Notes under the pieces: generated by a model
Seen by the model: the letters and a program-made list of their open reading frames with translations, nothing else
Database searches by the model: none
Told to the model about the DNA's origin: nothing
Translations under genes and position numbers: made by a program
Assembly (NCBI RefSeq): GCF_020179405.1
Contig: NZ_JAICBZ010000035.1
Location: 1-39,969, forward strand
DNA from: Xinfangfangia pollutisoli
GTDB lineage: Bacteria > Pseudomonadota > Alphaproteobacteria > Rhodobacterales > Rhodobacteraceae
Length of the DNA stretch: 39,969 nucleotides
Reading direction: 5' to 3'
Shown here: one piece after another, positions 21,768 through 38,307 of the stretch
Position numbering within the stretch: position 1 is the stretch's first letter
How the letters are laid out: every line of letters begins with the position of its first letter

Positions 21768-21853
21768 ACCAGGGGTGCTCCGACCGGGGCTGAGATGCGC
21801 GATGACGCGTGAACCCTTCACAGCTGATCCGGGTAATACCGGCGGAGCGAGGA
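21768..21853 (+). ncRNA. TPP riboswitch (thi box)
   Basis: The leader has the thi-box core: GGGGTGC, then GGGGCTGAGATG, then GAACCCTTCACAGCTGATCCGGGTAATACCGGCG and a closing GCGAGG. CTGAGA and the CTGATC..GGTAATACC.GCG motif are the universally conserved thiamin pyrophosphate contacts. The 3' closing strand includes the GAGG (21849-21852) that serves as ribosome-binding site for the ATG at 21858. TPP binding should therefore hide that site and shut off translation. It controls the five-gene operon that follows. Confidence 0.95.
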
Positions 21854-21857
21854 AACC

Positions 21858-22481: not shown

Positions 22482-22507
22482 GCGCCGCCGGAGAAGGGGC
22501 TTTGCCG

Positions 22508-23266
22508 ATGCTGATGCGTGTCCTGACGCCGCTTGCGGTCTTTGCCGCCCTTCTGGCCGGATGGGAGGCCTATTGTCGCCTCGCCGGCGTGTCGCCGCTG
22601 GTGCTGCCGCCGCCGTCGGGCGTGCTGCGCGCGCTGGTGCAGAACCGGGCCGAGATCGCGCCGCATGCGCAGGCCACGCTGAGCGTCGCGGCGCTGGGCT
22701 TTTCGCTGTCGGTGGCCTTTGCCTTCCTGACCTCGGTCGTGCTGCAGGCGCTGCCCCGCGCCGAGCGGGCGCTGATGCCGCTGTTCGTGGCCAGCCAGAC
22801 CGTGCCGCTGGTGGCGCTGGCGCCGCTGATGATCCTGTGGTTCGGCTTCGGGCTTCTGCCCAAGGTGCTTCTGGTGGTGCTGGTCACCTTCCTGCCGATG
22901 CTGATCAGCCTGCTGTCGGGCTATCGCCAGGTGCCGCAGGCCTTTGTCGACCTGCTGCAGGCGATGGGCGCGGGGCGCTGGACGGTGTTTCGCCGCGCCC
23001 GCCTGCCCTCGGCCCGGCCGGCCTTTCTGGCCGGGCTGCGCATCTCGGCCACCTATGCGATCGTCGCCACGATCTTTGCCGAATATGCCGGCGCCCGGCG
23101 CGGGCTGGGGATCTATATCCTGGCGGCGAAGAACAATTTCCGCGCCGATCTGGTGCTGGCGGCGGTCGTCGTCTCGGCCGGGCTGACGCTGGCCCTGCTG
23201 GCGCTGCTGCATCTGGCCGCACGGCTGACCGCCCGCGGCCCCGAAGGGCAGGCCCCCGATGCTTGA
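22508..23266 (+). CDS. thiX: ThiX, thiamin-precursor ABC importer permease
   Basis: A 252-residue inner-membrane permease (BPD_transp_1 fold) with about six hydrophobic helices. A coupling loop GYRQVPQAFVDLLQAMGAGRWTVFRRARLPSARPAF is typical of the SsuC/ThiX group, and the ATYAIVATIFAEYAGARRGLGIYI motif is a hallmark. ATG 22508 has GGAGAAGGGG upstream; ATG 22514 is a poorer choice. It lies between the YkoF-like gene (26 nt) and thiZ (8-nt overlap). ThiXYZ imports formylaminopyrimidine and related pyrimidines for thiamin salvage. Here the substrate is inferred from the riboswitch and ThiY. Confidence 0.87.
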   Translation: MLMRVLTPLAVFAALLAGWEAYCRLAGVSPLVLPPPSGVLRALVQNRAEIAPHAQATLSVAALGFSLSVAFAFLTSVVLQALPRAERALMPLFVASQTVPLVALAPLMILWFGFGLLPKVLLVVLVTFLPMLISLLSGYRQVPQAFVDLLQAMGAGRWTVFRRARLPSARPAFLAGLRISATYAIVATIFAEYAGARRGLGIYILAAKNNFRADLVLAAVVVSAGLTLALLALLHLAARLTARGPEGQAPDA

Positions 23267-24002
23267 GGTTCAGGGCCTGACCATCCGCGCGGATGGGCGC
23301 GATCTGGTGCGCGATCTGGCGCTGCGCCTGCCCGCACAGGGCATCACCGCGCTGATCGGCCCCTCGGGCTGCGGCAAGACCTCGGTGCTGAAATGGCTGG
23401 CGGGCATCCTGCCCCAGGGGCTGGGCGCGACAGGCACGCTGCGGCTTGACGGCGCGCCCATCGCGCCGCCGCACCGGGCGCTTTCGTATCAGCCGCAGGG
23501 CGATGCGCTGTTTCCCTGGCTGACCATCGCCCAGAATGCCGCCCTTGGCCTGACCGTCGCAGGCCTGCCCCGCCGCGCCGCGCACGCCCGGGTCGCCCCG
23601 CTGTTTGCCGCCTTCGGCCTTGCCGGCTGCGAGGCGCTGTATCCGGCCCAGCTGTCGGGCGGCATGCGCCAGCGCGCGGCCTTCCTGCGCACCATGGTGC
23701 AGGACAGCCGGCTTGTGCTGTTGGACGAACCCTTCTCGGCACTGGATGCGGTCACCCGGCTGAGGATGCAGGACTGGCTGCGGAGCCGGCTGCAGGCCGC
23801 CCCGCGCGCGGTCCTGCTGGTGACGCATGACCTGCACGAGGCCACGGGCCTGGCCGACCGCATCCTGGTCATGGCCGCGGGTCCGGGCCGCATCCGCGCC
23901 GAAATTCCGGTTCCGATCCCGCAAGACCAGCGCAGCGAGGCCGCCCTGGCGCCGCTGCGCGAGACCCTGAAAACCCTGCTTCTAGAGGACCCGCCCCGAT
24001 GA
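23259..24002 (+). CDS. thiZ: ThiZ, thiamin-precursor ABC importer ATPase
   Basis: A 247-residue ATPase with Walker A GPSGCGKTS, a Q-loop in YQPQGDALFPWLTI, signature LSGGMRQRAAFLR, Walker B LVLLDEPFSALDA and the H-loop VTHDLHEA. It resembles the SsuB/TauB/ThiZ group. It overlaps thiX by 8 nt and thiY by the ATGA junction, so the three subunits are translated together. It powers ThiX. Confidence 0.88.
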   Translation: MLEVQGLTIRADGRDLVRDLALRLPAQGITALIGPSGCGKTSVLKWLAGILPQGLGATGTLRLDGAPIAPPHRALSYQPQGDALFPWLTIAQNAALGLTVAGLPRRAAHARVAPLFAAFGLAGCEALYPAQLSGGMRQRAAFLRTMVQDSRLVLLDEPFSALDAVTRLRMQDWLRSRLQAAPRAVLLVTHDLHEATGLADRILVMAAGPGRIRAEIPVPIPQDQRSEAALAPLRETLKTLLLEDPPR

Positions 24003-25003
24003 TCCGCTTCGCTTTCCTGGCCGCCTGCCTGTCCCTGTCGGCGCCCGCCCTGGCCGAGATACCCGCACCAACCGACGCGCAAACCCCCGTCACCATCGCG
24101 CTGGACTGGACGCTGAACACCAACCATATCGGCCTGATCGTCGCCCGCGACCGCGGGTTCTACGCCGAGGCCGGGCTGGAGGTTGAGATCCTGCCCTATT
24201 CCGATACCAGCTCGGCCGCGCTTCTGGCCTCGGGCGCGGCGGATTTCGGCTATCTCACCTCGCTGGGCTTCCTGTCGGCCCGGGCCGGCGGCGCAGATCT
24301 GGTGGCGCTTTGGGCCACGATGCAGCATGAAACCGGGCGGCTTGTGTATAACAGCGACAATGCCGCCATCACCCGGCCCGCCGATCTGTCGGGCAAGACC
24401 TATGCAGGTTTCGGCAGCGCCTGGGAAACCGCGCTGATCGGCACGATGATCGCCCATGACGGCGGCGATCCGGTCTGGGATACGGTGACGCTGGGCACCG
24501 GCGCCTATGAGGCGCTTGCGGCCGGACAGGTGGATTTCACCCTGGAAGTGGCAACCTGGGAAGGCGTGAACGGCGCGCTTCTGGGCCGTCATCAATCGGC
24601 CTTCCGCTATGCCGATTACGGCATTCCCGATCAGCAGAACGGCTATATCGCCACCCGGGCCACGGTTCTGGCCGCCGATCCCGACCTGGTCACCCGCTTC
24701 ATGCGCGCCACCCAGGCGGGCTATGCCTGGGCGGCCGATCACCCGGATGCGGCCGCCGAGATGATGATCGCCGCCGGCGATTTTCCCAATCCGGCGCTGG
24801 TCCATGGCTCGATGCAGGCCATCGTCGAGGGCGGCTATCTGCGCGACGGCGCGGCCCCGGTGGGGGCGATCGACGCCGACCGTTTCGCCGCGATGGCGCG
24901 TTTTCTGTTCGACAGCGGCGTGCTGAAGGATGCCGGCGGCGCGGTGCTGGCCTGGCCGGGCGATGTCTCGGCCTGGTATGACCAAAGCTGGATGGCGAAG
25001 TGA
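23999..25003 (+). CDS. thiY: ThiY, thiamin-precursor periplasmic binding protein (NMT1/THI5-like)
   Basis: A 334-residue binding protein with a signal peptide ending near SAPALAEI (about residue 20). The mature part begins TPVTIALDWTLNTNHIGLIVARDRGFYAEAGLEVEILPYSDTSSAALLASGAADFGYLTS, the NMT1/THI5-like fold that binds 4-amino-5-hydroxymethyl- or formylamino-pyrimidine. KTYAGFGSAWETALI and VDFTLEVATWEGVNGALLGRH line the cleft by family comparison. As the third importer part under a TPP riboswitch, it captures the pyrimidine in the periplasm. It shares GTGA with the following gene. Confidence 0.88.
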   Translation: MIRFAFLAACLSLSAPALAEIPAPTDAQTPVTIALDWTLNTNHIGLIVARDRGFYAEAGLEVEILPYSDTSSAALLASGAADFGYLTSLGFLSARAGGADLVALWATMQHETGRLVYNSDNAAITRPADLSGKTYAGFGSAWETALIGTMIAHDGGDPVWDTVTLGTGAYEALAAGQVDFTLEVATWEGVNGALLGRHQSAFRYADYGIPDQQNGYIATRATVLAADPDLVTRFMRATQAGYAWAADHPDAAAEMMIAAGDFPNPALVHGSMQAIVEGGYLRDGAAPVGAIDADRFAAMARFLFDSGVLKDAGGAVLAWPGDVSAWYDQSWMAK

Positions 25004-26238
25004 TCCTGAACGCCGTCCTGTTCGGCCATGGCAGCCATGAATCCGCCTGGCGCGCGCCGGGCGCCGATCCGATGGCGCCCCTGCGGCTGGACCATTGGCT
25101 TGCCTGCGCCCGCGCGGCCGAGACGGCGGGCTTCGACGGGCTGTTCCTGGGCGATATCCTGTGCCTGCAGGACCGGCCCGAGCAGCACCCGTCCGAAGCG
25201 CTGGACCCGTTCCTGGTGCTGGCGGCGCTGACTGGCGCGACCCAGCGGCTGACGCTGACCGGCACCGCTTCGACCAGCTTCACCCATCCCTGGACGCTGG
25301 CCCGCCGGATCCTGTCGCTGCATCACCTCAGCGGCGGGCGGGCGGGCTGGAACATCGTCACCTCCTCTTATCCGCAAGAGGCCGCGAATTTCGGCTGGCC
25401 CGAGATGCCGCCCACGGCCGAACGCTATGCGCTGGCCGAGGATGTGGTGCAGGCGGTGCGGGCGCTGTGGGCGGGCTGGGATGGGATCACCCGGCTGGGC
25501 GATGCCGCTTCCGGCCGCTATCTGAACCGGGCGCCCGACCCGATCCGCCATCAGGGCCGCTATGGTGCGACCGGCGGGCCGGTGAACCTGTCGCCCGCCC
25601 CCTACGGTCCGCCGCTGCTGGCGCAGGCCGGGTCCTCGGCCGAGGGGCTCGCCTTCGCCGCCCGCCATGCCGATCAGGTGTTCACCGTGCAATCCGACCT
25701 GGCCGAGGCCCGCGCCTTCCGGGCCCGCCTGCGCCAGCAGGTCCAGGCCTGCGGCCGCGATCCCGATACGGTCAAGCTGCTGCCCGGGGTGGTGATCTTT
25801 GCCGACGAAACCCGCGCGAAGGCCGAGGCCCAGCTTCAGGCCCTGACCGCGCGGCTTGAGATCGACCATATCCTGGCCAAGCTTGCGCGCTTTACCGGGC
25901 TGGACCTGGCCAGCGCGCCGCTGGACAGACCGCTGCCCTTCGGGCCCGACGATCTGCAGCCCAACCGTTTCAGCAATTCGCGCGCGCATCTGTTGCTGGG
26001 CCAGGCCCGACGACAGGGGCTGACCCTGCGCCAACTGGCCGCGCGCTTTGCCGCGGGGCGCGGGCATCTTCTGCTGGTCGGCACCGGGGCCGAGGTGGCG
26101 GCGGTGTTGCGCGACTGGCTGGCCCAGGGCGCGGCCGACGGGTTCAACGTCATGCCGCCGCTTCTGCCGCAGGGCTTGGTGGATTTCGGCCGCCATGTCG
26201 CCCCGCATCTGCGCGGCCAGGGCCCTGCCCCGCTATGA
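25000..26238 (+). CDS. Flavin-dependent monooxygenase (NtaA/SnaA/DszA branch of the luciferase-like family)
   Basis: A 412-residue flavin monooxygenase of the bacterial-luciferase superfamily. Motifs are HESAWRAPGADP near the N-terminus, FDGLFLGDILCLQ, TASTSFTHPWTLARRILSLHHLSGGRAGWNIVTS (reduced-flavin site) and LAQAGSSAEGLAFAARHADQVFTVQ. The NtaA/DszA/SnaA branch oxidises nitrilotriacetate, dibenzothiophene sulfone and similar N- or S-compounds with FMNH2 from a separate reductase; none is encoded nearby. It begins with GTG overlapping the thiY stop and is the last gene of the TPP-controlled operon. A role opening a damaged thiazole or pyrimidine precursor is plausible (inference). It ends against the M20 gene with no terminator space. 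Confidence 0.88.
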   Translation: MILNAVLFGHGSHESAWRAPGADPMAPLRLDHWLACARAAETAGFDGLFLGDILCLQDRPEQHPSEALDPFLVLAALTGATQRLTLTGTASTSFTHPWTLARRILSLHHLSGGRAGWNIVTSSYPQEAANFGWPEMPPTAERYALAEDVVQAVRALWAGWDGITRLGDAASGRYLNRAPDPIRHQGRYGATGGPVNLSPAPYGPPLLAQAGSSAEGLAFAARHADQVFTVQSDLAEARAFRARLRQQVQACGRDPDTVKLLPGVVIFADETRAKAEAQLQALTARLEIDHILAKLARFTGLDLASAPLDRPLPFGPDDLQPNRFSNSRAHLLLGQARRQGLTLRQLAARFAAGRGHLLLVGTGAEVAAVLRDWLAQGAADGFNVMPPLLPQGLVDFGRHVAPHLRGQGPAPL

Positions 26239-27573
26239 CGACAGGCCGCACCAGCCGATCATGCTGCGGGCATAGATCCGCGCCGCGTCGATCAACTGCG
26301 CCAGCAGCACATGTTCATCCACCGCATGGGCGCAGCCCAGATCGCCCGGGCCGAAGGCCAGGGCCGGAATGCCGCGCTGGGTGAAATAGGTCGCGTCGCA
26401 AGAGGCGATGAACCCATGCGTCTCGCGCAGCCCCGCCGGCACCGGGCCCAGAACCGCGGCCCGGTCGGCGATCAGCCGGCGCACCAGCGGCGCCTCCTCG
26501 GGCGTCTCGAAAGCGGGCCAGTTGCTTTCCCAGACCAGCAGCGGCGGATGATCGCGCAGCCAGCTGTCCAGCTGCGCCGCATGCCGGACCTGCGCTTCGA
26601 TTTCAGCCTTGATCGCCTGCGGGTCGACCGCCGGCGGATACCAGACCAGAACGCCGATCCGGGCGCGATGCGCCAGATAGCCCACACTTGGCACACCGGA
26701 ATCGGCATGGAAGAAGGCCGGGGTCAGGGTGAAGACGCCGGGCGGGAAGGCGGGGTTGCGTTTCGTCAGCCCCCATTCCTGTTCCAGCTGCTGCAGCGCC
26801 TGCACGACCAGCATGCCCTTTTCCACCGCATTGACCCCGGCCGCATTGCCCGCCCCGCCGGCCCGGATCGAAGACCCCCGATTGCCGACATGGGTGCCAT
26901 AGCCCTGCACCTCGATCTGCAGCACGAAATTCCCGACCGAGACCGGCGCGATCGCCAGGGGGCCGGGCACGCTGGTCGGCTCGGCGATGATCGCGGCATC
27001 GGCGGTATAGCCCGCTTCCAGCAGCGCATCGGTGCCCAGATCGCCATGGCCGGTTTCCTCGCCCACCACGGCCTGGATCTGCAGATCGCCCTTCAGCGCC
27101 AGGCCCAGCCGGTCCAGCGCCGCCGCCGCCAGCGCGGCCGAGATCAGCCCGCCCTTCATGTCGGTGGCGCCCAGCCCATAGAGCCGGTCCTCGGTCAGTT
27201 CGGCCGACCACGGATCGCCGCCCCGCCATTCCTGCGGCCGCACCGGCGGAACCGTATCCAGATGGCCGTTGACGATCAGCGACCGGCCGCCGCCGCGGCC
27301 CTTGCGGATCAGCACGTAATTCGGTCGCTCGGGGTCGGGTGCCAGGGTTTCCAGCCCGAAGCCGAAGCGCGTGACGTAATCGGCATAGATCCGGCCCGAG
27401 GCCGCCTCGCCGCCGATCACATCCGCCCGCGCGATGCCCGGAAACAGCGGATTGACGCTGTTGACCCGCACCATCTGGCGCAGCACCTCCAGCGCTTCGG
27501 GGAACAGGGCGTCGATCTGGGCGTCGATCCGCGCCGCCAGATCGGGCGGCAGGTCATAGGTCTCGGCGGTCAT
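26233..27573 (-). CDS. M20-family metallopeptidase/deacylase (ArgE/DapE-like)
   Basis: A 446-residue zinc enzyme of peptidase family M20. Probable metal ligands and catalytic residues are His104 and Asp106 in VNGHLDTVPP, Asp138 in GATDMKGG, Glu172-Glu173 in VGEETGHG, Glu198 in IIAEPT and a late His in GDLGCAHAVDEH. Relatives deacylate N-acyl amino acids, cleave dipeptides, or deformylate pyrimidines (YlmB). ATG 27573 overlaps the previous stop (ATGA). As the last gene of the pip2 - amidase - importer operon, it probably hydrolyses the imported compound. Since it also abuts the thiamin operon, a YlmB-like task is a second option. Its stop codon lies directly beside the stop of the opposing gene. 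Confidence 0.9.
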   Translation of the reverse strand: MTAETYDLPPDLAARIDAQIDALFPEALEVLRQMVRVNSVNPLFPGIARADVIGGEAASGRIYADYVTRFGFGLETLAPDPERPNYVLIRKGRGGGRSLIVNGHLDTVPPVRPQEWRGGDPWSAELTEDRLYGLGATDMKGGLISAALAAAALDRLGLALKGDLQIQAVVGEETGHGDLGTDALLEAGYTADAAIIAEPTSVPGPLAIAPVSVGNFVLQIEVQGYGTHVGNRGSSIRAGGAGNAAGVNAVEKGMLVVQALQQLEQEWGLTKRNPAFPPGVFTLTPAFFHADSGVPSVGYLAHRARIGVLVWYPPAVDPQAIKAEIEAQVRHAAQLDSWLRDHPPLLVWESNWPAFETPEEAPLVRRLIADRAAVLGPVPAGLRETHGFIASCDATYFTQRGIPALAFGPGDLGCAHAVDEHVLLAQLIDAARIYARSMIGWCGLSS

Positions 27574-28373
27574 GCAAGCGTCTCCATCGGGGTGCTGCCC
27601 GTGCCGGTGCGGCGCCGGCCGATCCGGGGAATGGCCTCCAGCAGGGCGCGGGTATAGGGGTCGCGCGGGTTGGAAATGATCTGCGCGGTGGGGCCCGTCT
27701 CGACCACCCGGCCGCGGTTCAGGACCAGGATCCGGTCGCACAGGCTGGCGACCGCGGCCATGTCATGCGAGATGAACAGACAGGCGGTGTGCCCCTTCAT
27801 CTGCCGCATCAGATCCAGGATCTGCCCGCGGATCGACACATCCAGCGCCGAGACCGGCTCGTCCGCGACGATCACCGCCGGATCGGTGGACATCGCCCGC
27901 GCAATGGCGATGCGCTGACGCTGCCCGCCCGAGAATTCGTGCGCATAGCGCTGCAGCGCGTCGGGCGGCAGGCCGACCCGGGCCAGCAACTCGGCCGCGC
28001 GGGCCAGATTGGCGACCCGGTCGCGATGGCCGCTGCCGCGCAGGGTTTCATGAATCTGCAGGCCGATCGGCATGCGCGGGTTCAGCGAGGCATAGGGATC
28101 CTGGAAGATCATCTGCACCTTCGCCGCCGCCCCGCGCGCCCCGCGCAGATCCTGCCCGGCCAGCCGGATCTCGCCGCCGGTTGCGGTTTCCAGCCCGGCC
28201 AGGATGCGGCCGATGGTGGATTTGCCCGAACCGCTTTCGCCGACGATGCCCAGCGTCTCGACCGGGGCCAGGGTCAGATCCACCCCGTCCAGCGCGCGGA
28301 TCTGGCGCCCGGCGGCGCGGAAGGTCTTGGTCAGGCCGCGGATGTCCACGATCGGAGGTGTCGCGTCAGCCAT
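27570..28373 (-). CDS. Dipeptide-type ABC importer ATPase 2 (DppF/OppF-like)
   Basis: A 267-residue ATPase with Walker A GESGSGKST, Q-loop MIFQDPYASLNPRM, signature FSGGQRQRIAIARA, Walker B AVIVADEPVSALD and H-loop ISHDMAA. FQDPYASLNPRM is specific to the oligopeptide/dipeptide/nickel group. It is short: it ends soon after SNPRDPYTRALLEAIP, without the roughly 50-residue C-terminal extension found in typical DppF/OppF. ATG 28373 has GAGGAAAG upstream and overlaps the preceding ATPase by 8 nt; an earlier ATG 13 codons upstream lies within that gene. Confidence 0.93.
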   Translation of the reverse strand: MADATPPIVDIRGLTKTFRAAGRQIRALDGVDLTLAPVETLGIVGESGSGKSTIGRILAGLETATGGEIRLAGQDLRGARGAAAKVQMIFQDPYASLNPRMPIGLQIHETLRGSGHRDRVANLARAAELLARVGLPPDALQRYAHEFSGGQRQRIAIARAMSTDPAVIVADEPVSALDVSIRGQILDLMRQMKGHTACLFISHDMAAVASLCDRILVLNRGRVVETGPTAQIISNPRDPYTRALLEAIPRIGRRRTGTGSTPMETLA

Positions 28374-29181
28374 GGCTTTCCTCGGGCACAAGCGCCGCTT
28401 CCAGCGCGGCATGGGCGCCGATCAGCGCGGCGGTATAGGGGTCGCGGGGGGCACGGATCACCTGCTCCCAGGGGCCTTCCTCGACGATCCGGCCGCCTTT
28501 CATCACGATCACCCGGTCGGCCACCTCGGCCACGGCGCCGATGTCATGGGTGATCAGCAGCACGGCCTTGCCGGTGCGGTTGCGGATATCGACCAGCAGT
28601 TCCAGCACCTGCGCCTGCACCGTCACATCCAGCGCCGTCGTGGGTTCATCGGCCAGCAGCAGCGCCGGGTCCAGCGTCAGCGCGGCCGCGATCATCACCC
28701 GCTGGCGCATGCCGCCCGACAATTCATGCGGATAGCTGCCCATCACCCGCGCCGGTTCGGGAATGCCCACATCGGCCAGGGCGGCCAGCGCCCGCACCCG
28801 CGCCTCGGCCCGGGTCAGGCCGCGATGGCGGATCAGCCCCTCGGTCATCTGCCGGGCGATGGACAGGACCGGGTTCAGACAGGTCATCGGTTCCTGAAAG
28901 ATCATGCCGATGCGGGCGCCGCGGATATCCTCCATCCGGCGATGGTCCAGCGCCGCCAGATCGGCGCCCTCGAACAGGATTTGGCCCGAGACATGGGCCT
29001 GCCCCGGCAAAAGCGCCATGATCGCCAGCGAGAGGCTGCTTTTGCCGCTGCCGGATTCGCCCACCAGCGCCAGAATCTCGCCCGGGCGGACATCGAAGCT
29101 GACCGCCTCGACCGCCGCCGGCCCCTGGGGCCCGCCATAGCGGACCCACAGGTCGCGCAGGGAAATCAGGGGATCGCTCAT
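28366..29181 (-). CDS. Dipeptide-type ABC importer ATPase 1 (DppD/OppD-like)
   Basis: A 271-residue ATPase with Walker A GESGSGKSS, the family Q-loop MIFQEPMTCLNPVLSI, signature LSGGMRQRVMIA, Walker B LLLADEPTTALD and H-loop ITHDIGAVAE. Like its partner it is shorter than classic DppD (about 325 residues), ending in RDPYTAALIGAHAALEAAL without the Cys-rich C-terminal extension. It starts at ATG 29181, sharing ATGA with the permease stop. The two ATPases form the heterodimeric motor of this importer. Confidence 0.93.
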   Translation of the reverse strand: MSDPLISLRDLWVRYGGPQGPAAVEAVSFDVRPGEILALVGESGSGKSSLSLAIMALLPGQAHVSGQILFEGADLAALDHRRMEDIRGARIGMIFQEPMTCLNPVLSIARQMTEGLIRHRGLTRAEARVRALAALADVGIPEPARVMGSYPHELSGGMRQRVMIAAALTLDPALLLADEPTTALDVTVQAQVLELLVDIRNRTGKAVLLITHDIGAVAEVADRVIVMKGGRIVEEGPWEQVIRAPRDPYTAALIGAHAALEAALVPEESHG

Positions 29182-30041
29182 CCGCGCCTCCGCCGGCCTT
29201 TGGGATCGGTCAGGTCGCGAATGCCGTCGCCGATCAGGTTGAAGCTGAGGACCGTCAGGCAGATCGCCAGACCGGGGAAGATCAGGATCCAGGGCGCCCG
29301 GGCAATGTAATTGCGCCCCGAGGCCAGGATCGAGCCCCATTCCGGCGAGGGCGGCTGCACGCCCAGCCCCAGGAAGGACAGGCCCGCAGCCGACAGGATC
29401 GCCGAGGAAAAGCCGATGCTGCCGATGACGATCAGGCTTTGCAGGATGTTCGGCAGCACCTGCACCCGCATGATCCGCGTGGGCGCGGTGCCGGCGATCT
29501 GGGCCGCCTCGACATAGGGTTTCGCCCGCTCGACCGCGGCCAGGCCATAGGTGACGCGGGCATAGAAGGGGATTAGGCTGATCGCGATGGCCAGCGTGGC
29601 GTTCTCGGCGCCGGGGCCCAGAAAGGCCACCAGCGCCAGAGCCAGCAGGGTGTCGGGGAAGGAATAGACCACATCGACGATGCGCAGCAGCAGGCCCTTA
29701 AGCCGCGCGGGGCAGAAGGCGATGACCAGGCCGAAGCTGACGCCCAGACCCAGCCCCGCCACCACTGCGGCCAGCCCGATCCCCAGCGAGGCGCGGGCGC
29801 CCAAGAGCACCCGGCTGAACAGATCGCGGCCCAGTTCATCGGTGCCGAACCAATGCGCGGCACCGGGCGGCGACAGGCGCGGCCCCGATCCCATGCGGAA
29901 CGGATCATAGGGCGCGACCCAGGGCGCCAGGATCGCGGCCAGAACGACCACGGCCAGGATCACGGCGCCGGTCGCGATCGACCAGTGGCGCAGCGCGGCA
30001 GGCAGGCGGAAGCGGCGGGGCGGCAGGGCGGTATCGGTCAT
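29178..30041 (-). CDS. Dipeptide-type ABC importer permease 2 (DppC-like)
   Basis: A 287-residue inner-membrane permease of the DppC/OppC family. An N-terminal helix (HWSIATGAVILAVVVLAAILAPWVAPYDP) is followed by the short periplasmic loop with HWFGTDELGRDLFSRVLLGARASL, a motif unique to this family. Further helices and the coupling loop EAAQIAGTAPTRIMRVQVLPNILQSLIV follow. It pairs with the DppB-like protein, and its start overlaps that gene's stop by 4 nt. Confidence 0.95.
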   Translation of the reverse strand: MTDTALPPRRFRLPAALRHWSIATGAVILAVVVLAAILAPWVAPYDPFRMGSGPRLSPPGAAHWFGTDELGRDLFSRVLLGARASLGIGLAAVVAGLGLGVSFGLVIAFCPARLKGLLLRIVDVVYSFPDTLLALALVAFLGPGAENATLAIAISLIPFYARVTYGLAAVERAKPYVEAAQIAGTAPTRIMRVQVLPNILQSLIVIGSIGFSSAILSAAGLSFLGLGVQPPSPEWGSILASGRNYIARAPWILIFPGLAICLTVLSFNLIGDGIRDLTDPKGRRRRG

Positions 30042-30961
30042 CTGCGGCGGACCCTTGGATCAAGCAGACCGTAAAGCAGGTCAAGCGCTGTGGTGACAAG
30101 CACGATGGAGGTGGCGAAGATCACGATGAAGCCCTGCACCAACGGATAGTCGCGCTGCAGCATGGCCTGAATGGCCAGCCGCCCGATGCCGTTCCAGGAA
30201 AACACATTCTCGGTGATGACCTGCCCGCCCAAGAGATGCGCGAAGACCAGGCCGACCACGGTGACGATCGAGATCATCGCCGGGCGCATCGCATGCACCA
30301 TCAGCACCTCGCGTTCGCGCAGGCCGCGGGCGCGGGCGGTGCGGATGTAATCCTCGTTCAGGATGTCGATCAGCGCCGAGCGGGTCATCCGCGCCACCAG
30401 CGCCGAATGCACGATGCCCAGCGTCAGGGCCGGGAGCACGATGTTGCGCGCGCTGGTGCCGGCGACCGGGAACCAGCCCAGATGCAGCGAGAAGACCTGG
30501 ATGAATGTCAGCCCCATCCAGAAGCCGGGGATCGACACGCCCAGGATGGCGATCAGCATCACCGCGAAATCCGCGGCCCGGCCGCGGTTCACCGCCGCGA
30601 TCACCCCCATCGGAATGCCCAGCGCCAGCGCCGTGCCCAGCCCGGCCACCGCCAGCGCGATGGTATTGGGCAGCCGGCCCAGCAGCAGCGGCGCCACGGG
30701 TTCATTGCCGCGGATGGTCGTGCCCAGATCGCCCTGCAGCACATTGCCCACATAGATCAGCGCCTGCTGCCAGACCGGCCTGTCCAGCCCGTATTGCTGT
30801 GTCAGGCGCGCGATGTCGGCAGCACTGGCATTGCCCGATTGCGCCAGCATGGCCGTGATCGGATCGCCCGGCACAAGATGGATCAGCACGCCGGCCAGAA
30901 ACACCACCACAAGGATGGTGATCGCGGCGGTCAGCAGGCGTCTGGCGACAAAGGTCAGCAT
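30038..30961 (-). CDS. Dipeptide-type ABC importer permease 1 (DppB-like)
   Basis: A 307-residue inner-membrane permease. It starts LTFVARRLLTAAITILVVVFLAGVLIHLVPGDPI and has YGLDRPVWQQALIYVGNVLQGDLGTTI, both characteristic of DppB/OppB. The coupling loop is YIRTARARGLREREVLMVHAMRPAMISIV, and a last helix precedes LLYGLLDPRVRRR. Gene order SBP - B - C - D - F is the classic one for peptide importers. The gene follows its binding protein after an 85-nt gap containing a hairpin. Confidence 0.95.
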   Translation of the reverse strand: MLTFVARRLLTAAITILVVVFLAGVLIHLVPGDPITAMLAQSGNASAADIARLTQQYGLDRPVWQQALIYVGNVLQGDLGTTIRGNEPVAPLLLGRLPNTIALAVAGLGTALALGIPMGVIAAVNRGRAADFAVMLIAILGVSIPGFWMGLTFIQVFSLHLGWFPVAGTSARNIVLPALTLGIVHSALVARMTRSALIDILNEDYIRTARARGLREREVLMVHAMRPAMISIVTVVGLVFAHLLGGQVITENVFSWNGIGRLAIQAMLQRDYPLVQGFIVIFATSIVLVTTALDLLYGLLDPRVRRR

Positions 30962-31046: not shown

Positions 31047-32591
31047 TCAGTCGATCTTCTTCACGTCATTGAAGATCAGCGAGGCGACGAAGCCGGTCTT
31101 GAAGCCTTCGATCTTGTCGGTCGAGGCCCAAAGCCAGTTCCAGCCCGGCGATACCAGCGGCACGGCATAGGTGTTTTCCAGCAGATATTTCTGCACCTCC
31201 TGCAATTTGGCCACCCGCGCCTCGCCGGTCAGCATGCGCTGGTCGGCAAGCATGGTGTCCAGCTCGGCCCCGACGCCCATGTTCACGAAGCCCGGCTGCT
31301 GCCACATCACGGTCATGTAGTCGGAATCGACGCCCGAATAGCCCATGGTCCACAGGACCGGCATGCCTTCGGTGCGCTGGTTTTCCTGCGACATCTGGTC
31401 GAAGAAGGCCGCGACTTCGCGCGTCTCCAACTCGGCCTCAACACCGATCTCGGCCAGGTGCTGCTGCATCATCTGATGCATCTGGTCAAAGCCCGGCAGC
31501 GCATGCACCGACAGCTTGATCTTCAGCGGGTTCTGCGGCGTATAGCCCAGCCCTTCCATGATCGCCCGCGCGGCATCGGGATCGTATTTGGTGCCCCATT
31601 CGGCGCATTTTTCCTGATCGACGCCGATCAGGCCGGGGGCTGCCGGGCAGGTCGTCGGGCTGACCAGCCCTTCATAGGCGATCGCGGCATAGGCGTCGCG
31701 GTCCAGCGCCATGCCGATGGCGCGGCGTACCTCGGGATTGTCGAAGGGCGGAAGCTTCCAGGTGAAGGCGGCCATGACCTGCTGGCCCGACAGATCGGCG
31801 GAATAGATCTTGAAGCCCGGCTCGCCCGACAGCATCGCCGCCTCTTCCAGCGAGGGTTCGGCCAGATCGACCTCGCCCGAGCGCAGCGCGGCCATCCGCG
31901 CCACCGCTTCGGGGATCACCACCAGCTTCAGCGTGTCGATATGGGGCCGGCCCTTGTTTTCGACCAGCTGGCCGAAGCCCTGATAGGCATCGTTCGCCTT
32001 CAGGGTGATATGGTCGTTGCGCACCCATTCGACCAGGCTGAAGGGCCCGGTGCCGATGGGCGCGAAAGCGCCATCCGCCGCGACCGAGCCTTTGCACAGC
32101 ATCGGAAGCGCGAAAGAGCCAAGATAGGACAGGAAGGGCCCATAGGGTTCCGTCATCTTGACGGTCACCACATTGCCCTCGGCCGTGACGCTTTCGATCG
32201 GGCCATATTGCGACAGGCGGGGGTTCATCGTCTCGGGCGCGACCGCGCGGGTGAAGGTGAAGACCACATCCTCGGGGCCGAAAGCCGCGCCGTCATGGCA
32301 GGTCAGGCCCTGCCGGATGGTGAAGCTGTAGGTCAGGTTGTCCTCCGAGATGGTCCAGCTTTCCGCCAGCGCCGGATGCGGCGCGCCGGTGGCGTCCAGC
32401 GAGACCAGCGTGTCGAAGATCAGGTCGGTGACCTGGCTGGACTGGGTGGTGGAAACCTTCTGCGGGTCAAGCCCGTCGGCATCGACGCTGCGCGCAACGG
32501 TCAGCGTGGTTTCGGCAGCCAGCGGCAGGGCGGTCAGCGCGCTGGCGCCAAGAAGCAGGGCGGAAAGGGTCAATCGGGGAAGAACGGTCAT
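31047..32591 (-). CDS. Dipeptide-type periplasmic binding protein (SBP family 5, DppA-like)
   Basis: A 514-residue binding protein of family 5. A signal peptide (PRLTLSALLLGASALTALPLAA, cleavage near residue 26) precedes TTLTVARSVDADGLDPQKVSTTQSSQVTDLIFDTLVSLD. Later come AESWTISEDNLTYSFTIRQGLTCHDGAAFGPEDVVFTFTRA and NPEVRRAIGMALDRDAYAAIAYEGL, all standard for the group. Members bind dipeptides, but also opines, glutathione, nickel chelates and other small polar molecules, so peptide is not assured. AGGA lies upstream of ATG 32591. It follows the amidase after 43 nt and feeds the DppB/C-like permease. Confidence 0.93.
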   Translation of the reverse strand: MTVLPRLTLSALLLGASALTALPLAAETTLTVARSVDADGLDPQKVSTTQSSQVTDLIFDTLVSLDATGAPHPALAESWTISEDNLTYSFTIRQGLTCHDGAAFGPEDVVFTFTRAVAPETMNPRLSQYGPIESVTAEGNVVTVKMTEPYGPFLSYLGSFALPMLCKGSVAADGAFAPIGTGPFSLVEWVRNDHITLKANDAYQGFGQLVENKGRPHIDTLKLVVIPEAVARMAALRSGEVDLAEPSLEEAAMLSGEPGFKIYSADLSGQQVMAAFTWKLPPFDNPEVRRAIGMALDRDAYAAIAYEGLVSPTTCPAAPGLIGVDQEKCAEWGTKYDPDAARAIMEGLGYTPQNPLKIKLSVHALPGFDQMHQMMQQHLAEIGVEAELETREVAAFFDQMSQENQRTEGMPVLWTMGYSGVDSDYMTVMWQQPGFVNMGVGAELDTMLADQRMLTGEARVAKLQEVQKYLLENTYAVPLVSPGWNWLWASTDKIEGFKTGFVASLIFNDVKKID

Positions 32592-32634: not shown

Positions 32635-34062
32635 TTATGAGGATGCGGGATGGATCGGCGGGCGCAGCTGCGCCCAGGGCCGGGCGGTTTCAAGCTGGCG
32701 CGCCAGGCGGAACAGCAGCGCCTCGGCGCCGGGCCTTGCGGCAAACTGGCAGCCGATCGGCAGGCCTTCGGCATTGCGCATCCCTGGGATCGACATGGCC
32801 GGGGCGCCGGCGATGTTGAAGGGATGGGTATAGGGCATCCAGTCCAGATAGGCGCTGTAATGCGCCTCGGCCGAGACGGAAAGATCGAAGCGGCCCAGGG
32901 GAACCGGCGGCTGCGCCAGCGTCGGCGACAGATACAGGTCATGGCGGTCGAACAGGGCCAGGATCTGCCGCGCCGTGCGATGCGTGCCGGTCAGCGCCTG
33001 GACATAATCGGTCGCGCGCAGGGCACGGCCGCGCTGGACGATCTCCCAGATCACCGGCGCGAAATCGGCAGGCGAAAGCGGGCGGCCCAGGATCCGTTCC
33101 TCGGCCTGCATCTCGGCGGCATATTCGGCCATGGCCAGGCACAGGAAATCGCGCCAGCCGTCTTCCGGCAGGTCCAGATCCTGCGGGACGCAGACATGGC
33201 CCAGATCCTCAAGCAGCGCGACCTGATCCTCGACCGCACGGATGCAGTCGGGATGGGTCGGCGCACCGTAGGGCGCCTGCGTCGACACGGCGATGCGCAG
33301 CCGGCCGGGATCGCGGCCCAGTTCGGCGGCAAAGTCGCGGCCGGCGGGGGCGTTGTAGAATTGATGCGGATGCGGGCCGGCGGTCGCGTCCAGCAGCGCG
33401 GCGCTGTCGCGCACCGTCCAGGTCAGCGCATGTTCGCACAGCATGCCCATCCAGCGGTCGCCATCGGGCGCCGTGGGCAGGCGGCCCCGCGTGGGCTTCA
33501 GCCCGAATGTGCCGCAACACGCGGCCGGCACCCGGATCGAGCCGCCGGCATCATTGCCATGCGCCATGGGCACGATCCCCGCCGCCACCGCCGCGGCACT
33601 GCCCCCCGAAGAGGTGCCGGTGGTATGGCCGGGCGACCAGGGGTTGCGGGTCGGGCCATGGGCGCGGGATTCCGTGCTCCAGTCCATCGCCAGTTCCGGC
33701 ACGGCCGTCTTGCCGAAGATCACCAGCCCCGCCGCCTTGTAGCGCCGGACCAGTTCGGTATCCGCCGCGGCCGGGCGGGTCAGCCGGGGGCCCCAGGCCG
33801 AGCCGGTCGGCTCGCCCCCGTAATGCGCGGTCAGATCCTTCAACAGGAAGGGCACGCCGGTGAAGGGCCCGTCCGGCAGTCCGGCCCGGATCGCGGCACG
33901 GGCCTTGTCTTCAAAGGTCGAGACGACGGCATTCAGCACGCCATTCACGGCGCCCACCGCCGCCAGGGCGGCATCCAGCAACTCGTCCGGCGTGACCTCG
34001 CCCGCCCGGACCAGCGCCGCAAGCCCGACCGCATCCTGCGCCAGATAGGCTTCAGGCGTCAT
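32635..34062 (-). CDS. Amidase-signature family amidase
   Basis: A 475-residue cytoplasmic amidase with the Ser-cisSer-Lys triad: Lys75 in PFLLKDLTAHYG, Ser151 in TGTSSGGSAAAVAAG and nucleophile Ser175 in DAGGSIRVPA. The 24-residue Ser-Ser spacing equals that of FAAH. AACCGTFGLKPTRGRLP follows as expected. No gatB/gatC partner or GatA-type context is present, so tRNA amidation is unlikely; hydrolysis of a carboxamide is predicted. GGAGG precedes ATG 34062. It lies 26 nt after pip2 and before the importer genes, so it should process the imported molecule (inference). The substrate is unknown. Confidence 0.93.
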   Translation of the reverse strand: MTPEAYLAQDAVGLAALVRAGEVTPDELLDAALAAVGAVNGVLNAVVSTFEDKARAAIRAGLPDGPFTGVPFLLKDLTAHYGGEPTGSAWGPRLTRPAAADTELVRRYKAAGLVIFGKTAVPELAMDWSTESRAHGPTRNPWSPGHTTGTSSGGSAAAVAAGIVPMAHGNDAGGSIRVPAACCGTFGLKPTRGRLPTAPDGDRWMGMLCEHALTWTVRDSAALLDATAGPHPHQFYNAPAGRDFAAELGRDPGRLRIAVSTQAPYGAPTHPDCIRAVEDQVALLEDLGHVCVPQDLDLPEDGWRDFLCLAMAEYAAEMQAEERILGRPLSPADFAPVIWEIVQRGRALRATDYVQALTGTHRTARQILALFDRHDLYLSPTLAQPPVPLGRFDLSVSAEAHYSAYLDWMPYTHPFNIAGAPAMSIPGMRNAEGLPIGCQFAARPGAEALLFRLARQLETARPWAQLRPPIHPASS

Positions 34063-34088: not shown

Positions 34089-35003
34089 TCAGGCCGCATC
34101 GCGCCCCCGCAGATAGTGGCTGACCGCTTCCATGCAGGCGGCGCGTTCCTCGTAATGCGGCATGTGGCTGGAGTTTTCGAACAGGATCCAGCGGTTGTCC
34201 GGGATGCGTTCGACAAAGGGGCGCACGACTTCGGGCGTCGCCTCGTCATGGCGGCCCGAGATCACCAGCGTCGGCACCTGGATCAGCGGCAGCCGGTCCT
34301 CGATCGTCCAGTCCTTCAGCGTGCCGATGACGTGGAATTCGGTCGGCCCGTTCATCGCGGCATAGACCGTGGGGTCTTCGGCCATGGCGTCGAAGGTGCG
34401 CTGCACCTCGGCCGGCCAGGGATCGCAGCGGCAGACATGCTGGCGATAGAACACATCCGTCGCGGCCAGATATTCGGGATCGGTCATCGTGCCGGCGGTT
34501 TCATGCTTCAGCAGCACCTCATGAATGCCGCCGGGCAGGGCCTTGCGCAGCCGGTTCGCCTCGGCCACCCAGGTCTGCATGCTGGCCAGCGAATCTGCCA
34601 GAACCAGCGCCTTCAGCCCAGCCGGCCGGCGCACCGCATGTTCGGCCCCCAGGATCCCGCCCCAGGACTGGCCCAGCAGCGCATAGCGATCGGCGATGCC
34701 CAGCGTGGCCAGCAGATTGTCCAGTTCTGCCAGGAACAGATCCACCGTCCAGAAGCCCGGCCCCTTGTCGCGCAGCCGGGTCGAGCCTCCGCAGCCCAGT
34801 TGGTCGTAATGGATCACCGCCCGGCCATCCAGCGCCGCCAGATCCTTGAAACTGTCCACATAGGCATGGGTGCAGCCCGGCCCGCCATGCGCCACGACCA
34901 GGGGCAGCGGCCCCGCCTTCAGATCGCCGGTCACCCGGTACCAGGTCTTCCAGTCTTTGAATGCGGCATGGCCTTCGCGTACCGCTTCGCTGTGCATCGT
35001 CAT
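34089..35003 (-). CDS. Proline iminopeptidase-like alpha/beta hydrolase (pip2)
   Basis: A 304-residue family S33 hydrolase, paralogue of pip1. It has HGGPG (39-43), Ser113 in GQSWGG, Asp253 in SGRHDEA and His280 in [28 protein letters not shown] and [13 protein letters not shown] match the pip1 cap. It is predicted to remove N-terminal proline or hydrolyse a short amide in the cytoplasm. Start ATG 35003 is used; ATG 34997 (MHSEAV) has better spacing from GGCGGA and may be the true one. First gene of an eight-gene operon and next to LuxR2, the classic pip - LuxR-solo arrangement. A lux-box-like dyad at 35068-35083 precedes it. Confidence 0.91.
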
Positions 35004-35067
35004 TCCGCCGTCCCGTCGCCTGCGCTGTCGCGGACAAGGCTAGGGGCGGGGAAGGACGGTCGTATAG

Positions 35068-35083
35068 CTGTCACAAATGATAG
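35068..35083 (-). promoter_or_regulatory. Lux-box-like dyad in front of the pip2 operon
   Basis: CTGTCA-CAAA-TGATAG, that is CTG-N10-TAG, close to the CTG-N10-CAG core of lux boxes. The same arms with a different centre recur at 35914-35929. Its centre is 72 nt before ATG 35003, fitting an activator site near -42 of a leader of about 30 nt. The -10 candidate (TAGCCT on the minus strand, 35042-35037) is weak, as is common at LuxR-activated promoters. Confidence 0.65.
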
Positions 35084-35107
35084 TGCCGCGCCGGGGCGCG
35101 TGGCGGC

Positions 35108-35857
35108 CTAGATCAGCCGGCGGCGGCTGGCCAGACAGACCGCATGGGTGCGGTTGCGCGCGCCCAGTTTCCGCACCGCCGCATTCAGATGCATGATCAC
35201 CGTGGGGATGGAACGGTCGATGATCCGCGCAATCTCTTTCGCCGAATTGCCCTCGGCGGCCAGGCCCAGACATTCCTGCTCGCGCGCGGTCAGGCCGATG
35301 GCCAGCGTATCGTCGCCGATCAGCTCGATCGCCGACTGGTTGAACAGATGCGCGATCAGCCCAAGATCGGCCACCACGCGCGAGGCGCCGCTGCGCCGCA
35401 GCCGGCCCCGGCCGATCGTCACCCCCGTGACGGTGGCGAAATCGCCCGAAGGCAGATGGATCGGCACGGTCACCCCGGAATAGACCTGCCGCTCGGCCAG
35501 ATAGGCCACGACCGGGGCGATATCGGGGGTCAGCAGCGGGCGGATCACGCTGTCGATCTCGGGGTCATAGCTCCACAGGAACGGGGCCGAGGTCGACAGC
35601 GCCACCATCTGCACCGGGTCCATGCGGATATATTCGTCGCCTGACCAGCGCGTCCACATCTCGTCGCCCAGATTGCGCTGCGCGAAGACCGAGGGGATCG
35701 GGATGCGCTTGTCGGCCCGTGCCGCCCGCGGGGTGTAATCGTAGATCATCCCGTCAAAGCCCAGGCCGCGCATGTGCCGGAAGGCGGCATCCACCCGGTC
35801 TTCAAGCCCGGCGCTTGCATCGAAGCTGCGCCGGATGGTTTCCAGATCGCTGTTCAT
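35108..35857 (-). CDS. LuxR-family solo regulator, OryR/PipR-like (LuxR2)
   Basis: A 249-residue regulator. It has an autoinducer-binding domain (about 15-160) and a LuxR helix-turn-helix (about 187-247: LTAREQECLGLAAEGNSAKEIARIIDRSIPTVIMHLNAAVRKLGARNRTHAV). Aligned on Asp80-Pro81 (TraR D70-P71) and Trp95 (W85), Met67 and Trp71 occupy the TraR Trp57 and Tyr61 positions at exact spacing. Those two substitutions define the plant-compound-responsive LuxR solos that do not bind AHLs well. No luxI is present. I use ATG 35857; an ATG seven codons earlier (MGRRGRP) is possible. The gene is flanked by two matching dyads and by pip2 and acylase operons, its probable targets. It is a distant paralogue of LuxR1. 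Confidence 0.92.
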   Translation of the reverse strand: MNSDLETIRRSFDASAGLEDRVDAAFRHMRGLGFDGMIYDYTPRAARADKRIPIPSVFAQRNLGDEMWTRWSGDEYIRMDPVQMVALSTSAPFLWSYDPEIDSVIRPLLTPDIAPVVAYLAERQVYSGVTVPIHLPSGDFATVTGVTIGRGRLRRSGASRVVADLGLIAHLFNQSAIELIGDDTLAIGLTAREQECLGLAAEGNSAKEIARIIDRSIPTVIMHLNAAVRKLGARNRTHAVCLASRRRLI

Positions 35858-35913
35858 CGGTCTGCCACGTCGTCCCATCCCCCTGCGGCAATTGGCGGGG
35901 ATCGGGGGGCACC

Positions 35914-35929
35914 CTGTCAAGGGTGATAG
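35914..35929 (+). promoter_or_regulatory. Lux-box-like dyad between LuxR2 and the acylase gene
   Basis: CTGTCA-AGGG-TGATAG; with flanks, ACC-CTGTCA against TGATAG-GTT forms an imperfect 22-bp dyad (7 of 9 arm positions pair). The arms equal those at 35068-35083. A GATAAG hexamer at 35953-35958 is a plausible -10, putting the dyad's centre at about -42 of a start near 35964, the standard activator position for LuxR proteins. It could also affect LuxR2's own promoter. Confidence 0.7.
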
Positions 35930-36033
35930 GTTACGCAGGGCCGGCTGGCGCGGATAAGCTGGGGCCGATGGCCTGGATTGAGACAGGCTGACCCTTTCCT
36001 GTGCAGCAGGACAAGACCGCCCGAGGAAGACGC

Positions 36034-38307
36034 ATGACCGCCCAGACCAGCCCGCCGGCGACGCCCCCCTTCACCCTCTGGCGCGAGTCGAACGGCATCC
36101 CGCATGTCCACGCGGCCAGCGATGCGGGGGCCTGGGCCGGCTTGGGCCTTGTGCATGCCCGCGACCGGCTGTTCCAGATGGACCACACCCGCCGCCGCGC
36201 CCAGGGCCGGCTGGCCGAATGGCTGGGCCCCGCGGCGCTGCCGGGCGACGTTCTGGCGCGCCAGCTGGGCGGGGCGGCGGTGGCGCGCGCCAATGTTCAG
36301 GCGCTGGGCCCCGAGGCGCGGGCGATGCTGCAGGCCTATTGCGCCGGGGTGAATGCCGAAATCGCCCGGCTGCGCGCGACGGGCGCCCTGCCCGAGGAAT
36401 ATGCGCTGCTGGGTCAGCCCGAAGGGCCCGCGCCCTGGACCGAGGCCGATTGCATCGCCGTGACGCGGCAGATCGGCCTGGCGATGGGGTCGTTCTGGAT
36501 GAAGCTGTTCCGCGCCGCCGCCCTGCCGGCGGTGGGCGCCGATCTGATATCCTCCCTGCGCCATGACGATGGCGGCGCCGACCGGTTCGTGCTGCCGCCC
36601 GGGGCCGAGGGGCAGCGCTGGGTGGCGGGCCTTGCCGATCTGGCGCCTGCCACGCAGGCGCTGCTGGCGCTGGGCTCGGATGCGACGGCGGGCGGGGGCA
36701 GCAACAATTGGGTGGTCTCGGGCGACCATACCGAAACCGGCCTGCCGATCCTGGCCGGCGATCCGCATCGCGAGCTGGACGTGCCGGCCATGTATGCCCA
36801 GGCGCATCTGCGCGGCGCCCAGTTCGACGTGATCGGCCTGACCATCCCCGGCGCGCCGGGCTTTCCGCATGTCGGGCACAATGCCGATGTCGCCTGGTGC
36901 GTCACCCATGCGATGGCCGATCTGCAGGACCTGTATCTTGAACGGTTCGACAAGGACGCGCGCCAGGTTCTGCATCGTGACACCTGGCATCCGGTCGCGC
37001 ATCGGCAAGAGCGGATCGCCATCCGCGGCGGCGCCGATGCGACGGTGGATATCTGGACCACGCCGCATGGCCCGGTGATCTGTGGCGATCCGCGCAAGGG
37101 GCATGCCATCGCCTTCGCCTCGCCCCAGTTGGCGCCGGAGGATCGCAGCTTCGACTGCCTGCCGCGGATGCTGCGGGCGCGCGGCGTGGCCGAGTTGCAC
37201 CAGGCGGTGCGCGGCTGGGGCCTGATCGACCACAATCTGGTGGCGGCCGACCGCGCGGGGCGGATCGGCCACCGGGTGCGCGCCACCCTGCCGCGGCGGG
37301 GCCGGCTGAACGGCTGGCTGCCGGTGCCGGGCTGGACCGGCTTGCACGATTGGCAGGGCATGGTGCCGTTCGAGGACATGCCCGCCGCGATCGACCCGGC
37401 CGGGGGGCGGATCATCACCGCGAACAACCGCGTCGTGCCGGATGACGGTCCCTATCACTTCTGCACCGATGCGACCCCGCCCTGGCGCGCCAGGCGCATT
37501 GCCGCGCTTCTGGATGCGCTGCCGGTGCTGTCGACCAGGACCATGGCGCCGATCATGATGGATTGCGAAAGCGGCGCTGCGCCGGTCTTTCGCGCCCATC
37601 TGGCCGCGCATCCGGCCGCCAGCCCGGACACGGCGCAACTGGCCGCCCGGCTGGCGGGCTGGGACGGGCAGATGCAGGCCGACCGGGTCGAGCCCACGCT
37701 TTACGCCCGCTTCCGCCTGGCGCTTGCAGTGCAGGTCACCCGCGCCGCGGGGCTGACGGCGCCGCAGGGAATCGCCTCGGGTCTGGTCGCGCCGGGCGAC
37801 ATGCTGACCCAGATCTGGTGGATCCTGCCGGGCCTGCTGCGCGCCGGGAATGCCGCGCTGCTGCGGGGCGAAAGCTGGGCCAGTCTGACCGAGGCCGCCC
37901 TGCGCGAGGTGCTGGACCAGGGCCCGCCGCTGCCCTGGGGGCAGGCGCATCGCGCACAGCTGCGCCACCCGCTGTCGGCGGCCTTTCCCGAGGCCGCGGC
38001 GCGGCTTGACCCGCCCTGTGCGGAAATCGGCGGCGACAATGACTGCGTCTGCGCCACCGGCATCGTGCCGGCCAAGGGGCTGGCCACCGGCTATGCGGCG
38101 CTGGCCCGCTATGTCTTCGATCTGGCCGATTGGGGCAATTGCGGCTGGACGGTGATCTCGGGCAGCGGCTCGGCCCCCGACGATCCGCATCGCAGCGACC
38201 AGAACGCCGCCTGGGCCGAAGGCGCGCTGGCACCGATGCTGTATGACTGGGACGTGATCCGCGCGACCTGCCGGCAGCAGGAGGACCACGGCCCCGCGGC
38301 CGACTAA
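36034..38307 (+). CDS. Penicillin-acylase-family Ntn hydrolase, apparently cytoplasmic
   Basis: A 757-residue precursor of family S45 (penicillin G acylase, cephalosporin/AHL acylases). The alpha region begins [54 protein letters not shown] spacer then leads to Gly-Ser223 in [11 protein letters not shown], where self-cleavage frees the N-terminal Ser nucleophile of the beta chain. [36 protein letters not shown] and [10 protein letters not shown] are beta-chain hallmarks. Known enzymes are exported; here the N-terminus ([12 protein letters not shown]) has no signal peptide. ATG 36034 has GAGGAAG upstream. It removes an acyl group from an amide, substrate unknown. Its promoter carries the putative LuxR2 box. 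Confidence 0.9.

Follow-up and report, generated by a model that had tools for sequence, protein, structure and literature searches.

Outward-facing lux-type boxes on both sides of a luxR gene with the marks of a plant-responsive solo in Xinfangfangia pollutisoli

The closest described systems are LuxR solos that adjoin genes for proline iminopeptidases (pip). In Pseudomonas sp. GM79, the pipA gene is preceded by an inverted repeat centred at −71.5 from the start codon, and changing two conserved bases of this repeat was reported to abolish PipR-dependent expression (PMC4981722). The same report describes a transporter mutant of this strain that was unresponsive, peptidase mutants that responded more strongly, and an aapA promoter that carries a second candidate PipR site and gave a weak response only (PMC4981722). 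The sequence CT(N12)AG is the published hallmark of the lux-type, or pip, box (PMC4471428, PMC4338825), and 'pip boxes' of this form beside pip genes have already been published for OryR and its relatives (PMC4471428, PMC4399327). The pip promoter adjacent to psoR is reported to be without a lux-box palindrome (PMC7683790), and in environmental and marine strains several solo units of Alphaproteobacteria are described as preceded by palindromes without CT(N12)AG (PMC4338825). OryR and LasR were each reported to activate the other's promoters, LasR also activating a pip promoter (PMC4471428), so the regulator cannot be read from a lux-type box alone.

The window analysed here is the whole 39,969-nucleotide stretch of X. 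pollutisoli DNA that forms contig NZ_JAICBZ010000035.1 (contig C118 of our set). It contains a luxR gene, luxR2, with the sequence CTGTCA-N4-TGATAG in each of the two gaps that touch it, and the following features surround these two boxes.

35068–35083, minus strand: left box, an exact motif match (plus-strand letters CTGTCACAAATGATAG; pip2-direction letters CTATCATTTGTGACAG)
35914–35929, plus strand: right box, an exact motif match (acylase-direction letters CTGTCAAGGGTGATAG)
35037–35042, minus strand: −10-like hexamer TAGCCT of a predicted pip2 promoter, 25 bp beyond the left box
35953–35960, plus strand: −10-like sequence GATAAGCT of a predicted acylase promoter, containing TAAGCT 25 bp beyond the right box
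35108–35857, minus strand: luxR2, autoinducer-binding domain and GerE helix–turn–helix (Pfam PF03472 and PF00196, above cut-off)
34089–35003, minus strand: pip2, proline-iminopeptidase-like alpha/beta hydrolase (Pfam Abhydrolase_1)
32635–34062, minus strand: amidase gene (Pfam PF01425)
31047–32591, minus strand: family 5 solute-binding protein of a peptide-type ABC transporter (Pfam PF00496)
30038–30961, minus strand: ABC transporter permease 1 (Pfam BPD_transp_1)
29178–30041, minus strand: ABC transporter permease 2 (open reading frame; 36–39% identity to permease-coding stretches beside luxR of the relatives compared)
28366–29187 (start approximate), minus strand: ABC transporter ATPase 1 (Pfam ABC_tran)
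27570–28376 (start approximate), minus strand: ABC transporter ATPase 2 (Pfam ABC_tran, oligo_HPY)
26233–27573 (start approximate), minus strand: M20-family peptidase (Pfam PF01546)
36034–38307, plus strand: penicillin-amidase-family acylase, divergent from luxR2 (Pfam PF01804, E=3.3e-169)

The left box lies 64 bp before the pip2 ATG, with its centre 72.5 bp from it. The right box is upstream of two genes, 56 bp from the luxR2 ATG and 104 bp from that of the acylase gene. Both copies possess CT(N12)AG and dyad symmetry, with 10 of the 12 arm positions palindromic (12 of 12 in, for example, locus L010). Exact copies of CTGTCA-N4-TGATAG number two in the whole genome (4,408,679 bases, 188 contigs), both at luxR2; the number expected from a first-order Markov model built on the window (GC 0.689) is 0.066 per genome, both strands counted, and 2.6e-6 for the second gap. 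The initial annotation had located identical arms at these two places, had seen no other copy in the gaps that it examined and had judged chance unlikely. Its coordinates are confirmed and its observation extends to the entire genome; its placement is refined in that the left box is assigned to the promoter of pip2 on the minus strand and the right box to the gap from which luxR2 and the acylase gene diverge. Looser matching makes the motif less special, the window holding 26 matches with up to three mismatches against 11.85 expected. The genome-wide one-mismatch scan that had also been proposed yielded six further copies, five of them inside open reading frames of at least 100 aa, and none of the six is followed by TANNNT 23–25 bp beyond the box. 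The family consensus CTRTMA-N4-TKAYAG, derived below, occurs in the source genome only at the two luxR2 flanks (as a control, the backward pattern matched once on each strand). A wider regulon under this consensus in the source genome was considered and rejected, there being no third site and no −10 hexamer at the six one-mismatch sites. One one-mismatch copy (C123:130331, approximately 260 bp past the LuxI-family match of the genome) is inside a 444-aa open reading frame and is taken as chance.

Compared by design and position, the boxes resemble those of PipR–pipA in GM79 and of OryR/XocR in Xanthomonas, where a CT(N12)AG dyad is likewise described before a pip gene beside a LuxR solo (PMC4981722, PMC4399327, PMC4471428). 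The distance from box centre to pip start codon is almost the same (71.5 bp in GM79, 72.5 bp in the window), and GM79 is also reported to have a second candidate site across pipR, before aapA, together with peptidases and a peptide-type ABC transporter (PMC4981722). In the window the half-site is CTRTMA, with G in one half, and the gene order differs, with the ABC operon on the pip2 side and the penicillin-amidase-family acylase as the divergent gene. The putative pip box of Kosakonia PsrR, as published, does not fit the window consensus (PMC7301841).

A nearer match is provided by rhizobial pip–luxR–pip loci of the NesR type (for example, p42b of Rhizobium etli CFN 42, locus L045), whose LuxR is approximately 50% identical to LuxR2 and whose downstream pip shares 65–72% identity with pip2 across the five loci compared. 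These loci contain two CTATAA-N4-TGATAG boxes in the same places and with the same outward spacing as in the window. Unlike the window, they carry CTA...TAG on both halves, and their divergent side is occupied by a second pip and an ABC operon, with no acylase. The classical Vibrio fischeri lux box has CTG/CAG ends. With such lactone-responsive boxes the window copies share the 16-bp core, CT(N12)AG, dyad symmetry and a position near −42.5 (PMC4471428); they are set apart by the CTA/TAG ends of most relatives and by the receptor pocket described below. Searches of open-licence literature did not find spelled-out forms of the box or a 'luxXc box' (the rhizobial boxes may stand in print outside it), the combination of LuxR, penicillin acylase and proline iminopeptidase, or the Rhodobacterales half-site and acylase target.

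Next to the R. etli luxR, a gene annotated as a proline iminopeptidase-family hydrolase has a product 68% identical to that of pip2. The solute-binding protein matches AapF, the solved binding protein of the Pip system, with E=3.4e-21 (7kz8), and other family 5 proteins score higher (best 1uqw, 9.4e-36). In the nearest relative, the Rhodobacterales metagenome-assembled genome bin_273 (L046; LuxR 89% and acylase 81% identical), both boxes are kept, as is the gene order pip2–amidase–binding protein–permease. Beside the end of the pip2 operon, approximately 21809–26238 of the window encodes a transporter-like permease, an ATPase and a solute-binding protein, followed by a luciferase-like monooxygenase frame, as named from their translations.

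The −10-like hexamers make both boxes point away from luxR2. On the pip2 side TAGCCT agrees with TATAAT at three of six positions. Read outward, pip-side boxes are followed by TANNNT at 23–25 bp, a range chosen after the loci had been viewed, in 29 of 32 non-redundant sequences (below 70% mutual identity, drawn from 88 of the 89 loci with a box at up to two mismatches), compared with 0 of 22 when read inward and, for the other three-offset windows, a mean of 0.2 and at most 1. Upstream boxes show the same signal outward in 7 of 17 sequences (background mean 0.5, maximum 3) and inward in 0 of 44. Many rhizobial upstream boxes have the A/T-rich TAAAAATT in place of the hexamer, and TANNNT near this distance is absent at the upstream boxes of L010, L039 and L129 and at the pip-side box of L011. 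Given the hexamer spacing, box centres would lie at about −43 to −46 from the predicted starts, which for both window boxes is close to the class II position of lux boxes, reported near −42.5 (PMC4471428). The earlier placing of the right copy near −42 from a GATAAG-based acylase start agrees with the 25-bp spacing found. The data thus point to two predicted promoters directed away from luxR2, with no sign of a box-driven luxR2 promoter.

The same measurements bear on whether the right box mainly controls luxR2 itself. It includes TTGACA, a perfect −35 hexamer in the luxR orientation that recurs inside the upstream boxes of the Rhodobacterales loci L046 and L047, so that bound LuxR2 might block or modulate its own transcription. 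This role is doubtful as the main one, given that an inward −10 signal at fixed spacing was seen in none of the 44 non-redundant sequences and that TTGACA is missing from the rhizobial boxes compared; autoregulation could, however, coexist with outward activation.

The regulator most probably served by these boxes has a distinctive ligand pocket. A profile alignment places M67, W71, D80 and P81 of LuxR2 opposite W, Y, D and P of LasR, which we take to be W57, Y61, D70 and P71 in TraR numbering, and pairs query position 70 of LuxR2 with TraR 60. In this numbering LuxR2 has the substitutions W57M and Y61W and retains D70 and P71. The W57M/Y61W pair together with a neighbouring pip gene is described as marking the plant-responsive solos NesR, OryR, PipR and others (PMC10134790, PMC4338825), and PipR and OryR are reported to show no AHL response (PMC4981722). 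In the window, pip2 adjoins luxR2. With a pip neighbour, a peptide-type ABC transporter and W57M/Y61W, LuxR2 by its sequence has the marks of a PAB (class D) plant-responsive LuxR solo of the PipR/OryR type. Twelve other genomes of the genus contained no LuxR2 match at E 1e-30, which suggests acquisition or patchy loss of luxR2.

The window carries a second LuxR solo gene, luxR1 (1891–2658, minus strand), near a second pip gene, pip1 (3595–4493, minus strand); its product is approximately 36% identical to LuxR2. A box common to the two regulators was rejected, as there is no CTRTMA box at luxR1/pip1. The palindrome CTGCAAGAAATTTCAG at 4551–4566 before pip1 has CT(N12)AG with five of six arm positions paired, and may be luxR1's own box.

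A rival reading would assign the boxes to ordinary quorum sensing, with LuxR2 or another LuxR as an acyl-homoserine-lactone receptor and the acylase as a quorum-quenching enzyme. The genome does contain one LuxI-family gene (C123:129569–130072, locus L151), the acylase family includes PvdQ, and LasR can reportedly act on a pip promoter, as noted above (PMC4471428). Yet no luxI is linked to luxR2: the LuxI-family match is the sole one in the genome, and the two genes would be at least approximately 9 kb apart even were their contigs joined, because both lie 4–5 kb from a contig end. The acylase is far nearer to glutaryl-7-ACA acylase, its closest solved relative (4hsr, E=2.6e-153), than to PvdQ (E=4.2e-5), the gene neighbourhood is of the peptide type, and the W57M/Y61W pocket is that of solos described as plant-responsive (PMC10134790), of which PipR and OryR are reported not to respond to AHLs (PMC4981722). 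We consider the quorum-sensing reading very unlikely.

Conservation was assessed with a profile scan of genome contigs from one genome per species (84,980 species), which gave 448 confirmed LuxR2 relatives, the best 80 of which were analysed. Counting sites with up to one mismatch to CTRTCA-N4-TGAYAG, a degenerate consensus fixed after the loci had been viewed, a box is present upstream of luxR in all of these 80 best loci (starting 40–88 bp before the luxR match) and a second one in the luxR–pip gap in 78, the loci being mostly Rhizobiaceae, heavily Rhizobium, and thus not independent. Across the 80 loci, 158 such sites fall in the two luxR gaps and 2 elsewhere (841,314 bases). One of the two loci missing from the 78, L115, has a pip-side box at two mismatches. 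In Salipiger thiooxidans (L047, LuxR 66% identical) the luxR–pip gap holds no recognisable box (the best has three mismatches); one of the two sites outside the luxR gaps, CTATCAGTTCCGATAG at 6773–6788, is found instead just past pip2 and ahead of the amidase gene, and TACCCT follows it at 23 bp. Apparently the second box has moved by one gene.

Outside this set, 19 further loci, including luxR1 of the window, were compared. In seven, one or both gaps contain CTRTMA-N4-TKAYAG without a mismatch, and L011 and L131 have it with one mismatch. L130–L133 (one genus outside the class) and L134 carry CTA-N10-TAG variants with a pip-side TANNNT 23 bp beyond, and L040 and L041 have CTATAAGATTCCCTAG after luxR, three mismatches off consensus. 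No such box was found in the luxR gaps of L012, L042, L043 and L135, of which L012, L042 and L135 are more distant relatives. In eight more whole genomes, picked for containing a LuxR2 relative, CTATMA-N4-TKATAG occurs 13 times, 11 of them at luxR flanks (backward control, 1); the two non-flank sites (G906 contig C8 and G098 contig C1) have no TANNNT at the fixed spacing, and the luxR of G098 has no site by this strict pattern. Over the nine whole genomes together, 13 of 15 consensus sites are at luxR flanks, a distribution suggesting that any one regulator has few targets outside the two transcription units next to it.

These comparisons alter the motif as it was first written. CTGTCA-N4-TGATAG is real in the window but fails as the family consensus, because in 76 of the 80 relatives it has two mismatches to each flank site and ties with other two-mismatch sites are common, the luxR-flank sites being the two best in only 33 of the 80 loci. 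The element is an imperfect palindrome with the family form CTATMA-N4-TKATAG, of which the window, with G at position 3, carries a half-site variant. The initial annotation's 'new lux-type box' is therefore lux-type, as conservation and near-confinement to luxR flanks in the whole genomes searched indicate, and new only in part, pip boxes having been published; the lux-box geometry that it described holds, with CT(N12)AG and a −10-like hexamer at nearly the class II distance, and the corresponding gaps of related species, which it had singled out for comparison, hold the box as given above.

The divergent gene changes across lineages while the box persists. In Salipiger the upstream box is preserved before an acylase remnant. 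This N-terminal remnant (approximately 4452–4823 of L047) stands beside an intact-looking box; an intact orthologue was rejected, as only about 140 N-terminal residues align and later frames hold stops. That the sites track luxR whether the divergent gene is an acylase, as here, or a second pip with an ABC operon, as in Rhizobium, and that they have lux-box design, makes it very unlikely that some other regulator binds them and luxR2 is just their neighbour. A chance repeat without function is scarcely credible: the element is short and a widened degenerate consensus could overfit, but its whole-genome rarity and its conservation at two fixed places argue otherwise, as does a comparison on 18 chosen loci, 8 of which were reached by CTGTCA-N4-TGATAG and no more than 6 (mean 0.045) by any of 200 letter-shuffled motifs.

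Since the boxes combine CT(N12)AG, conservation, near-confinement to luxR flanks and near class II spacing with the marks borne by LuxR2, they are best regarded as real lux-type boxes of the pip-box kind. A real and conserved element of this kind, with a lineage-specific half-site and with the acylase gene as predicted divergent target, is well supported by the comparisons. Very probably the boxes are operators for LuxR2, a solo of the plant-signal (PipR/OryR) type, that drive both outward units. Each box, centred about 43–46 bp upstream of a predicted start, would take the place of a −35 element, the arrangement of class II lux-box promoters. LuxR2, as a dimer carrying its ligand, would occupy the dyad and bring in RNA polymerase to transcribe outward on either side, activating rather than repressing. 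The left box would drive a predicted pip2–amidase–peptide ABC transporter–peptidase operon and the right box the divergent acylase gene. By analogy with GM79, an imported amide or peptide-like signal, the ligand class we infer, would raise its own uptake through the transporter, and the peptidase, amidase and acylase would degrade it and limit the response.

More tentatively, the box and −10 hexamer that flank a PipR-type regulator on either side may form a fixed two-way promoter module with exchangeable outward cargo. Within one Rhodobacterales lineage the divergent slot would have been taken by a penicillin-amidase-family acylase acting on an imported amide signal, and the altered half-site would set TTGACA over the regulator's promoter, adding autorepression. 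We hold this extended picture to be possible rather than probable.

The acylase is a possible signal-processing enzyme. Within the subgroup formed by relatives of LuxR2 the boxes have CT(N12)AG, in contrast to the palindromes without it in the alphaproteobacterial solo units surveyed in a published comparison (PMC4338825). Paired boxes stand beside related sensors in many root-associated bacteria, and the X. pollutisoli locus is a variant of this known control system in which the controlled enzyme is apparently a different one. The element is well explained rather than mysterious, and its value lies in an explicit operator and promoter rule, CTATMA-N4-TKATAG followed at 23–25 bp by TANNNT, covering a broad group of LuxR solos of the plant-signal type.
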